Source: Formicincola oecophyllae
Lineage (GTDB): Bacteria > Pseudomonadota > Alphaproteobacteria > Acetobacterales > Acetobacteraceae
DNA: 64,000 bases
Assembly (NCBI RefSeq): GCF_006542395.2
Contig: NZ_CP038231.1
Location: 1,178,001 to 1,242,000, forward strand
Reading direction: 5' to 3'
Shown here: positions 31,604 to 39,453 of the stretch, piece by piece
How positions within the stretch are numbered: position 1 is the first letter of the stretch
Layout of the letters: each line of letters opens with the position of its first letter
Notes under the pieces: model-generated
The model's database searches: none
What the model saw: only the letters and a program-made list of their open reading frames with translations
What the model was told of the DNA's origin: nothing
Position numbers and translations under genes: made by a program

Positions 31604-32686
31604 ATGGCAGCCCAGAAAGTGGAATGCATTAACGGTTTCGGTCAGAAAGTCATGGCCGTTCCCCAGAAGATCGCCATCAACGGCTTCGGCCGCATTGGCC
31701 GTCTCGTGCTGCGCGGTATTATTGAAACCGGCCGCACGGACGTTATTCCCGAGCTCATCAATGACCTCGGCAATGTTGAGGACCTGGCCCTCCTGCTGCG
31801 CTACGATTCAGTGCATGGCCGTTTCCCTGGCGAGATCATCGTCAACGGCAACACCATCACCATCAAGAGCAAAGACGGCAAGCGCACCTGGGGCCCCATC
31901 AAGGTGACCGCCGAGCGTGACCCCAAGGCCCTCCCCCTGCAGGGCATTGACGTCTGCATGGAATGCACCGGCATTTTCCGCACCAAGGAAAAAGCTCAGC
32001 CCCTGCTGGACGCCGGCGCCAAGCACGTCTTGATCTCCGCCCCTGCTAAGCAGGTTGACGCCACCATCGTCTACGGTGTGGACAACGAAGTCCTGCGCCC
32101 TGACATGACCGTCATCTCCAACGGCTCCTGCACCACCAACTGCCTTGCCCCCATCTGCAAGGTCCTGCTGGACGCCACGGGCATCAAGTGCGGTTACATG
32201 CTGACCGTCCACTCCTTCACCGGTGACCAGCGCACCATCGACAGCATCCATAAGGATCCCCGTCGTGGCCGCGCTGCCTCCGTCAACATGATCCCGACCA
32301 AGACGGGCGCTGCAGAGGCTGTCGCCGCCGTGCTGCCCATCCTGAAAGGCCGCCTGACCGGCAACGCCGTTCGCGTGCCGACCCCAGACGTGTCCTTCGT
32401 GGCGCTGGACTACATCCCCGAGCGCAAGCCCGCCTCCCTGGATGACGTCAACAACGCCATGAAGAAAGCTTCTGAGGCTGGCAGCCTGAAGGGCGTTCTG
32501 GGTTACAACACTGACCCGCTGGTGAGCTCCGACTTCATCCACTCACCGTTCTCTTCCATTTTCGATGCCACGGAAACCCGTTGGGTCAATGATGGCGAGA
32601 TCGTCCACGTCAGCGGTTGGTACGACAACGAGTGGGGCTTCTCCAACCGTATGTCTGACGTCGCCGCCCTGTACGGGGAATTCTGA
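31604..32686 (+). CDS. gap: Glyceraldehyde-3-phosphate dehydrogenase, type I
   Basis: Oxidises glyceraldehyde 3-phosphate to 1,3-bisphosphoglycerate with NAD(P) in central carbon metabolism. It has 360 residues from ATG 31604. [10 protein letters not shown] is the nucleotide-binding motif at 25-34, and [12 protein letters not shown] carries the catalytic cysteine. HSFTGDQ and [13 protein letters not shown] are also present. An extra 16-residue N-terminal piece, containing CINGFGQKV, precedes the normal start [16 protein letters not shown] and looks like a partial copy of it. Residue 18 onward is normal. pgk follows 2 nt later, forming a gap-pgk operon. Confidence 0.96.
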
Positions 32687-32688
32687 TC

Positions 32689-33903
32689 ATGGCTTTCCGC
32701 ACACTCGACAATGCTGATGTGCGCGGAAAGCGGGTTCTGCTCCGTGCTGACCTCAACGTGCCTATGCACGATGGCGTCATCACGGACACCACCCGTCTTG
32801 ACCGCGTTGCCCCCACCATCCGTGAACTTGCCAAGGATGGTGGCAAAGTCATCCTGCTGAGCCACTTTGCCCGTCCCAAAGGCAAGGTCGTTCCGGAAAT
32901 GTCCCTTGCTCCCGTTGCCAAGAAGCTTTCCGAGATCCTTGGCATGCCTGTCGCCTTCGCCTCTGACTGCGTTGGCCCCAAGGCGAAGGAAGCTGTGGAC
33001 GCCCTGAAGGATGGCCAGGTGCTGGTTCTTGAAAACACTCGCTTCCACGCGGGTGAGGAAAAGAACGACCCAGCCTTCGCCAAAGAGTTGGCTGCTAACG
33101 GTGACATCTATGTTGATGACGCCTTCTCAGCTTCTCACCGTGCCCATGCCTCTACAGAGGGCATCGCCCACCTGCTGCCCGCTTTCGCTGGCCGCTTGAT
33201 GGAGCAGGAACTCAAAGCGCTTGAGAAAGCCCTTGAGCATCCAGAGCGCCCTGTTGGTGCCATCATCGGTGGGTCCAAGATCTCCACCAAGATTGCGCTG
33301 CTCAACAACATGGTTGCCAAGGTGAACGTGCTGGTCATTGGCGGCGCCATGGCTAACACCTTCCTGGGCGCTCAGGGCGTGAATGTCGGCAAGTCCCTCC
33401 AGGAGAAGGACATGTACCCGACAGCCCTGGAAATCCTGAAGACGGCCAAAGCCAAGGGTTGCGACATCATCCTGCCGGTTGATGCCGTGGTCGCCAAGGA
33501 ATTCGCCCCGAATGTGGCTACGGAGACGGTTGCGATTGACGCCGTTCCTTCTGACGCCATGATTCTGGATGTTGGCCCCAAAACAGTTGAGCTGATCATC
33601 GCCAAGATGAAGACGCTTCGCACGCTGGTTTGGAATGGCCCGCTTGGCGCGTTTGAGGTGCCCCCCTTCGACAAGGCGACTGTGGACGTGGCCCGCGCTG
33701 CTGCCCAGCTCACCAAGGAAGGCAAGCTCATCACGGTTGCTGGCGGTGGTGACACCGTCTCTGCCTTGAAGCACGCTGGCGTTGCTAATGATTTCACTTA
33801 CCTCTCAACGGCAGGCGGTGCCTTCCTTGAGTGGCTGGAAGGCAAAGTCCTCCCAGGTGTGAAAGTGCTTGAGACCACAGGCGCCGAACTCGGCCTTGGC
33901 TGA
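32689..33903 (+). CDS. pgk: Phosphoglycerate kinase
   Basis: Transfers phosphate from 1,3-bisphosphoglycerate to ADP. It has 404 residues. The substrate-binding signature [14 protein letters not shown] is near residue 16, and [10 protein letters not shown] and [10 protein letters not shown] follow. [19 protein letters not shown] and the nucleotide loop [11 protein letters not shown] complete the family set. It is encoded directly after gap. Confidence 0.97.
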
Positions 33904-38229: not shown

Positions 38230-39342
38230 TCAATTTGCAACCGGTCCGGCTGGACTTTCATCCACAGCTACCGGGTCGGGGCCACTGGTTTTGGGGGGTG
38301 GGTTGGCCTTAAGCCACTCAGGTGACGGACCTGCCGCTTCAGGCTCAGCGAATTGGGGCACACGCCCATAATGGCCGAAATTCACCAATCTGGCCTCACG
38401 CAGGGAAAGCTTGCCGAGAACAGCGCTCCGCACCAAGAAAATGGCCAGTGCTGAACCCAGGAATGGCCCCACCAGGTAAATCCACAGCCCCCTGTAATCG
38501 TGCATGAACAGGGCTGGCGCCAAAGTGCGTGTGAAATTGGTGCTGTCACCGCTGATGAAAGCCACCAGCGGATTCATGATGCAGAAATAAGGCCCCGTCC
38601 ACCAAGCCGCAAAACGTTGGAAGCGTGGATGGGCCACAAACCACAACATCACCAGCACCAGCCCCATCGTGGCGATGAGCTCTGCCACCATGACGGCCCA
38701 CAGGGGCCATTCATGGGCAGGGTACGTGCCACCATAACCCGTTTGCTGGGCCATTTGCGCCCACTGGGGGACCAGGCACCCTACTAACCACAGGGCTGCT
38801 GTCCCCATGAGGCTCCCTAGAAGTTGGGCACCAAAATAGCCCAGCATGTCTGGCGCTTTCATGCGCCCAGACAGAAAAAAGGCCAGTGAGACGGAGGGGT
38901 TGAGGTGCGCACCACTGACTTTGCCAAAACGTGTCAGGGCGCCTGCTGTGCAGGCGAGGCCAAAACCCAACCCACACAAGGCGATCTGCACCAGGGGCCA
39001 GTGGCGCAACCATTGCGCTAAGGGGGAGGATGAAGCCAACGTCACCATGCAGACGCTCAACCCAACAACCATCATGATGGCTGTGGCTAAAGCTTCGCAG
39101 CCGTAAAGGCGCCAATGCCAGCGCTGTGTGGGCGCGCCTGAAAGGGGGCGGTCCTTCAGCTCATGCAGGTAGAACCTGATGTGTGGGAACTTAATGTGGG
39201 GCTTTTTGCCATGAAGCGCCCCCTGGATAGTGTGGCCGCCATGGCGCCGCACCCATCGCCAAACATGGCGCTGCATCTTGGCCAGCCGTGCCTGAGGCGC
39301 TCTGCGTGGCGTGGAGGGTTGTTGATGGGGCGCGTCAGTCAT
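38230..39342 (-). CDS. Aquaporin-like MIP family channel with altered NPA motifs
   Basis: A membrane channel of the aquaporin/glycerol facilitator family. It has 370 residues from ATG 39342 (GGAG 8 nt upstream), against about 230-280 usually. A basic, His-rich N-terminal tail of about 75 residues precedes six hydrophobic segments. The first pore loop reads SGAHLNPSVSLAFF (NPS at about 148-150). The second reads GDSTNFTRTLAPALF (NFT at about 269-271) where NPAR is expected, with the following Arg kept. A Pro-rich tail of about 40 residues ends it. The fold assignment is good; water, glycerol or another solute cannot be decided. Confidence 0.85.
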   Translation of the reverse strand: MTDAPHQQPSTPRRAPQARLAKMQRHVWRWVRRHGGHTIQGALHGKKPHIKFPHIRFYLHELKDRPLSGAPTQRWHWRLYGCEALATAIMMVVGLSVCMVTLASSSPLAQWLRHWPLVQIALCGLGFGLACTAGALTRFGKVSGAHLNPSVSLAFFLSGRMKAPDMLGYFGAQLLGSLMGTAALWLVGCLVPQWAQMAQQTGYGGTYPAHEWPLWAVMVAELIATMGLVLVMLWFVAHPRFQRFAAWWTGPYFCIMNPLVAFISGDSTNFTRTLAPALFMHDYRGLWIYLVGPFLGSALAIFLVRSAVLGKLSLREARLVNFGHYGRVPQFAEPEAAGPSPEWLKANPPPKTSGPDPVAVDESPAGPVAN

Positions 39343-39453
39343 GCTTGCCACTCCGAAAGGGCAGGGACAGCACCTGCTTCCCGCCCAATCGGTTGCCTTG
39401 ATGGCACAGTAGGCGGGGGCGGGGGAACCAGCCTGCCACGCCCTGGAAGCAGG

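Follow-up and report, generated by a model that had tools for sequence, protein, structure and literature searches.

The window analyzed here, a stretch of 64,000 nucleotides of Formicincola oecophyllae DNA, harbors on its minus strand an open reading frame of the MIP (aquaporin) family at positions 38230-39351, which comprises 373 codons when counted from a GTG at 39351. The likelier start is the ATG at 39342, which coincides with the end coordinate given in the original prediction and is preceded, with 8 nt spacing, by a GGAG that resembles a ribosome-binding site (39351-39354, read from the sequence); the gene then spans 38230-39342 and encodes 370 amino acids plus stop, the in-frame GTG adding three residues. 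Residue numbers used below start at the GTG, and all features of the channel gene lie on the minus strand. A promoter scan found no sigma-70-like site, the scores being no better than those of shuffled sequences. A SpoU-type methyltransferase, tRNA-Tyr and a gyrase B-type subunit are encoded nearby.

The protein passes the gathering cut-off of the Pfam MIP family (PF00230, 107.7 bits, cut-off 25) and falls below the curated cut-off of the MIP channel subfamily model TIGR00861 (110 bits, cut-off 171.25), as well as below the equivalog cut-offs for aquaporin Z (NF003838, 70.1 bits, cut-off 256), the lactic acid channel LarD (NF043012, 14 bits, cut-off 390) and Gla (NF045553, 31 bits, cut-off 400). 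Pfam and NCBIfam scans revealed no second domain, and the gene is the sole MIP match in the 1.96 Mb genome.

Both half-helix motifs of the pore had been predicted to be altered, and this reading was borne out by the translation, an alignment of 222 MIPs and an AlphaFold model. Box 1 reads NPS (HLNPSV, residues 151-153, 38893-38901) and box 2 reads NFT (STNFTRT, residues 272-274, 38530-38538), followed by the conserved Arg275 at position LE2 of the ar/R selectivity filter. Canonical NPA in both boxes is usual for MIPs though not strictly required; the window protein lacks it, and neither the alignment nor the model places an NPA at a half-helix tip. From the window protein plus 36 relatives found on named genome contigs, AlphaFold2 produced a model of the former with a pTM of 0.75 and a mean pLDDT of at least 85 in every 10-residue block of residues 81-310, while confidence is low over a large part of both tails. 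Six transmembrane helices and two half-helices (residues 152-160 and 273-283) are predicted, the box motifs sit at the half-helix tips, and Asn151, Asn272 and Arg275 align with the pore asparagines and the filter arginine. Comparison of the model with solved aquaporins yielded Z scores of 23.9-26.8 among the 50 matches listed, and 24.9 for PfAQP (3c02; rmsd 2.5 over 225 residues). Alignment, model and relatives rule out a chance motif or a misreading, and the NFM, NFA or NFV that relatives show at the same site makes it improbable that box 2 owes its sequence to a sequencing error.

The His/Arg-rich N-terminal tail and the Pro-rich C-terminus described in the original prediction are both present. 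The former (residues 4-79, 39115-39342), cytosolic by MIP topology, is 76 amino acids long from Met4, contains 10 Arg, 9 His and 5 Lys against 3 Asp/Glu, and includes the element PHIKFPHIRF common to relatives; the latter (residues 333-373, 38233-38355) has 10 prolines in 41 residues and is poorly conserved, as judged from sequence and alignment. Two motifs are invariant in 37 aligned sequences, DRPLSG (DRPLxG; residues 67-72, 39136-39153) just ahead of TM1 and EARLVNFGHYGRVP (EARxxxFGHxGRxP; residues 319-332, 38356-38397) after TM6.

A family search for proteins that share both altered motifs uncovered a clade of Acetobacteraceae channels with the same box pair. At the family level, 222 of 397 genomes gave a match; 88 matches scored at least 164 bits, below them came two of 140 bits and a single one of 111, and the remainder scored 74 or less. 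Box 2 is altered in all 66 of the 88 top matches that were fetched (L002-L067), and box 1 reads xPS in all 65 of these in which it is readable, L034 being a fragment. Of the three matches at 140 and 111 bits, the third of which is in G129, the two that were read, L068 and L069 (both from genome G131), carry NPA/NPA. A profile search of genome contigs yielded 104 loci, of which the best 80 were kept, and a scan of the contigs with the single window protein as query gave no match. The best 80 of the 104 loci come from Acetobacter, Gluconobacter, Komagataeibacter, Gluconacetobacter, Novacetimonas, Bombella, Parasaccharibacter, Asaia, Acidomonas, Endobacter, Brytella and Tanticharoenia, with Beijerinckia mobilis as the one member outside the Acetobacteraceae. 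Among 337 genomes sampled at class level, the window protein itself scored 454 bits and the next best 116. Since many acetic acid bacteria have the altered channel, it represents a real bacterial variant and no one-off.

In all, 103 clade ORFs were examined, 101 of them distinct over the core; L055 and L148 seem to be one gene entered twice. The clade signature comprises xPS in box 1, N-F/L-x in box 2, Asn-Pro at 260-261 and EARxxxFGHxGRxP, and the window protein has every element of it. The Beijerinckia mobilis member (L121; NPS/NLA, filter F-N-N-R, tail PHLHLPHFHLP) was probably acquired by horizontal transfer. At three loci (L113 of Acetobacter tropicalis, L034 and L160), an in-frame stop divides an NF-type copy into two ORFs (one TAG in G348), and the copy of L113 looks broken in that strain. 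The median share of histidine in the 40 residues before DRPL is 24% in 58 NF-type sequences vs 5% in 44 NL-type sequences, and a PH-x-(0 to 3)-PH element, PHIKFPHIRF in the window protein, occurs in 33 of the 58 vs 3 of the 44, both comparisons being made on uncut ORFs whose true starts are uncertain and whose rows are not independent. That the His-rich tail senses pH is speculation.

A quick tree built from 92 of the 222 aligned MIP rows, thinned by similarity, places the clade (31 rows) on a single branch with an SH-aLRT support of 97. Its nearest branch is L068/L069 (NPA/NPA, filter F-S-A-R; support 95), and the window sequence clusters with Bombella (98) and next with SPS/NFA sequences, Acidomonas and Endobacter among them (95). 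Bacterial DRPL-type aquaporins, found in G131 (Acetobacteraceae) and on plasmids of Deinococcus aetherius and Microvirga lotononidis, resemble the clade in carrying DRPLxG ahead of TM1 and, at the C-terminal end, a related motif that contains R and F, but their boxes are canonical NPA/NPA, and the G131 filter is F-S-A-R; one of the two G131 copies reads DLPLSG at the DRPLxG site. Three plasmid aquaporins akin to this outgroup (L292, L294 and L297; two from Deinococcus, one from Frondihabitans) all have glycoside hydrolase genes nearby, and two of them a glucose 1-dehydrogenase gene; two further records show neither gene type within a short stretch, and another record carries no annotation. The AqpZ-like and GlpF-like bacterial MIPs, so named by their filters, share family and fold with the window protein but have NPA/NPA boxes, filters F-H-T-R and W-G-F-R in the compared rows, and other branches of the tree.

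The ar/R filter of the window protein consists of Phe130 (H2, 38962-38964), Asn260 (H5), Asp269 (LE1, 38545-38547) and Arg275, as assigned by alignment. Among the 103 clade ORFs the filter is F-N-N-R in 77 and F-N-D-R in 26, and neither occurs in any of the 118 compared MIPs that contain the box-2 proline. Asn260 and the adjacent Pro261 (38569-38574) are both present in 103/103 clade ORFs and have a frequency of 0.00 in the Pro-containing MIPs. At fifteen positions, a residue shared by at least 97% of the clade occurs in less than 5% of the Pro-containing set; three of these, Ser153, Asn260 and Pro261, are found in every one of the 103 ORFs and differ in the L068/L069 outgroup. Asp67, His79, Phe256, Arg321, Phe325, Gly326, His327 and Gly329 are also present in this NPA/NPA outgroup, and the cytosolic-motif residues held in common indicate that much of these motifs predates the pore change. 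The new selectivity raised in the original prediction thus fares well in one part, since the F-N-D/N-R filter of all clade members and no Pro-containing MIP makes an altered selectivity plausible, and less well in the other, the box changes having precedents and probably not being independent.

Within the clade, the branch that unites the window sequence with genus g33, here called Bombella-type, departs further. Position 3 of box 2 is Thr or Met in the window protein and 10 genus-g33 genomes, and Ala (91) or Val (1) in the other 92 clade ORFs. Trp265, kept in all 92, is lost in the same window and genus-g33 set, the window protein having Phe265 in its place (38557-38559). Five of seven branch-specific changes fall within residues 249-286 around loop E (p 0.0027), a figure of little weight as the interval was picked post hoc. 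The Bombella copies have dN/dS values of 0.045-0.184 in 36 pairs (9 of 10 loci, whole ORFs), so that the altered gene is maintained in Bombella.

In most MIPs, two prolines hold the half-helices together. Alignment of 225 MIP ORFs, from which 3 fragment rows with box gaps were dropped, left 222 rows, a non-random sample in which the clade is over-represented. The box-2 proline is missing from 104 of the 222, and Ser is the third residue of box 1 in all 104, compared with 1 of the 118 that have the proline (NPS/NPA). All but one of the 104 belong to the clade. The exception, L176 (G532; another family of the same class), has NPS/NLA boxes and an H-I-A-R filter and takes a separate position in the tree, so that the box-2 proline was lost at least two times, each time with a box-1 Ser. 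As the tree reduces the association to two independent losses (p 0.5 in a sign test), it fits coupling of the two boxes and is no proof of it. A strict universal rule is ruled out by fungal MIPs with NPA/NLA and SPA/NMA (PMC7927018) and by a Nostoc protein with NPG/NAA. The latter, encoded on a plasmid of Nostoc sp. C052 (L296), is a further case of box-2 proline loss without Ser.

Complementary boxes have precedents elsewhere in the family, in channels that pass water, glycerol or drugs. In PfAQP (NLA/NPS), the aquaglyceroporin of Plasmodium falciparum, the residue that takes the place of the proline is said to make up for its loss by hydrogen-bonding through its backbone amide to the hydroxyl of the Ser, and algal MIPB (NPS/NAA) is interpreted as showing the same Ser compensation (PMC3111385). 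For AQP7 (NAA/NPS), a water and glycerol channel, the published account (PMC7339978) instead describes a change in van der Waals packing, with the Ser touching a different helix, and the details of compensation thus vary. Such boxes can set the substrate range, since changing TbAQP2 (NSA/NPS) to NPA/NPA is reported to lower pentamidine transport by 95% (PMC12803511). PfAQP, AQP7 and TbAQP2 resemble the window protein in their aquaporin fold and in pairing a box that lacks Pro with an NPS box, but in these channels it is box 1 that lacks Pro and box 2 that reads NPS, so that the window protein is their mirror image, with another filter. MIPB has the same orientation, a box-1 Ser with a box 2 lacking Pro, but its ar/R filter is Y-L-G-R or Y-F-G-R as against F-N-D-R, and the comparison is limited to the MIP-family level. 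In S. cerevisiae, Fps1 has NPS/NLA boxes and long cytosolic tails. Fungal delta, alpha and Fps1-like aquaglyceroporins have lost the box-2 proline as well, nearly all delta members among them (PMC4236510); these groups are eukaryotic, and their likeness to the window protein is drawn from published descriptions. Among the papers listed on aquaporins of acetic acid bacteria, no title or abstract opening indicated a transport or functional study of the clade, and an NPA passage was not found in the pneumococcal AqpC paper.

Gene neighborhoods offer clues to the substrate. All 14 Komagataeibacter NF-type loci of the best 80 adjoin one ORF cluster, the scanned representative of which has Dak1 and Dak2 (dihydroxyacetone kinase); the kinase gene is co-directional and lies 9-139 bp downstream of the channel in the 13 loci with a measurable gap. 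Consistent with this, a paper on K. intermedius reports a dihydroxyacetone kinase downstream of 'aquaporin Z_I' (PMC9705422). Two Komagataeibacter papers each list three genes annotated 'aquaporin Z', apparently including clade channels. The location beside dihydroxyacetone kinase points to glycerol or dihydroxyacetone as the likely substrate in Komagataeibacter. This neighbor is confined to Komagataeibacter loci (14 of the best 80), and the neighbors differ in other genera; no neighborhood common to the entire clade was found among 40 of the best 80 loci and the window, a rough picture because longest-ORF calling in GC-rich DNA also took antisense frames. Three Acetobacter SPS-type loci are near phosphoglycerate kinase, GAPDH and transketolase, and in the window phosphoglycerate kinase and GAPDH lie ~4.3 kb from the channel gene. 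The window GAPDH occupies 31604-32686 and phosphoglycerate kinase 32689-33903, the latter clustering with an ORF that matches Pfam PGK, and their orientation relative to the channel is that seen in A. fallax, A. musti and A. oeni; the arrangement is possibly a remnant of shared gene order.

A kinase survey covered 34 genomes, 33 with a clade channel plus G131. Glycerol kinase and Dak1 gave no match in the window genome or in any of the 10 genus-g33 genomes, though the channel is kept, and the other 23 genomes have glycerol kinase in 23 cases and Dak1 in 22. Kinase absence and pore changes are confined to one lineage and therefore count as one event. With one model for PQQ alcohol dehydrogenase applied to 9 genomes, the best score in the window genome was 27 bits against a cut-off of 480; four genus-g33 genomes reached 148-154 bits, also below the cut-off, and four other genomes passed. 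For the window organism there is accordingly no support for dihydroxyacetone or acetic acid being supplied from the periplasm. Glycerol uptake as the role of the channel in this organism is weakened by the unmatched kinases, and a link to ethanol-to-acetate conversion by the missing strong dehydrogenase match in this 9-genome, one-model comparison.

Taking together the family assignment, the predicted fold, the paired motifs, the clade with its filter residues, the gene neighborhoods and the absence of the kinases, we consider it likely that the gene encodes a working aquaporin-fold channel of an Acetobacteraceae MIP variant with a complementary box pair, for which we infer conduction, compensation, substrate and role. 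The stacked prolines would be replaced by the terminal Ser of box 1 and a bulky non-proline residue, Phe, in the middle of box 2. Because both pore asparagines and the filter arginine are kept, the half-helix caps and the proton block should survive, judging from MIP structures. The F-N-D-R filter, as opposed to F-H-T-R of AqpZ-like rows, would pass water and small neutral solutes (polyols, ketoses), and possibly undissociated acids. In glycerol-using relatives the channel probably feeds glycerol or dihydroxyacetone to kinases, and one of these two was most likely the ancestral cargo. In the window organism, where the kinases were not found and the pore is retuned (Ala274 to Thr, Trp265 to Phe), the channel, as the genome's only MIP, would most likely equilibrate water or small solutes, and an osmotic or small-solute role is the more likely one for the window/Bombella lineage.

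Several other explanations were weighed against this one. It is possible, if on the whole doubtful, that the channel acts clade-wide as a facilitator importing glycerol or dihydroxyacetone made in the periplasm; the kinase gene that follows all 14 Komagataeibacter NF-type genes (Dak1 and Dak2 in the representative) and the K. intermedius report argue for such a role, whereas the window and all 10 genus-g33 genomes keep the channel with neither kinase matched, and the neighbors are different outside Komagataeibacter. A channel that equilibrates undissociated acetic, lactic or similar acids would help acid formers, which many Acetobacteraceae are, and Fps1-like channels are an acetic acid route in yeast. 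The best 80 loci are indeed all from this family bar the Beijerinckia copy. Undissociated lactic acid is reported to pass other MIPs, and Fps1-like channels likewise lose the box-2 proline (PMC4236510); neither a gene neighborhood nor a filter residue points to acids, however, and with no strong PQQ alcohol dehydrogenase match in the window genome we regard a weak-acid channel as rather unlikely. An ordinary AqpZ-like water channel with boxes under neutral drift, in keeping with the aquaporin fold and the single MIP match of the genome, is rather improbable too: the AqpZ equivalog score is 70 bits against a cut-off of 256, the filter is F-N-D-R and not F-H-T-R, the tree position is apart from the F-H-T-R and W-G-F-R rows, and fixation of Ser153, Asn260 and Pro261 in 103/103 clade ORFs is not what drift would give.

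The divergent sensor or transceptor put forward as the other option in the original prediction, in which the altered pore would be closed and the long tails would signal, found nothing in its support beyond tails of 76 and 64 residues that carry the conserved DRPLxG and EARxxxFGHxGRxP. The pore asparagines, filter arginine and half-helix fold are retained, much of both cytosolic motifs (Asp67; Arg321, Phe325, Gly326, His327 and Gly329) is already present in the NPA/NPA outgroup, and Pfam and NCBIfam scans found no further domain, which makes this reading very improbable. A bolder proposal, unlikely in our estimation, would see in the clade bacterial channels that have converged on the regulated solute channel of the yeast Fps1 type, with a complementary NPS/N-F-x pore that mirrors that of PfAQP and a new polar F-N-D/N-R filter, gated by the cytosolic flanking motifs and, in many members, by an acidification-sensing His-rich tail. 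Such a channel would control the flux of polyols or weak acids in acetic acid bacteria and would have been repurposed in the window/Bombella lineage after loss of glycerol catabolism.

Aquaporins are commonly taught to be recognizable by their NPA boxes. A whole bacterial clade that lacks the second proline, in a graded series from NPA/NPA in the outgroup to SPS or NPS with NLA, NFA, NFV, NFM or NFT in the clade, constitutes natural material on what the proline stack and a compensating Ser contribute to folding, proton exclusion and solute size. The clade channels occur in bacteria used for vinegar and cellulose production, in which solute entry matters.
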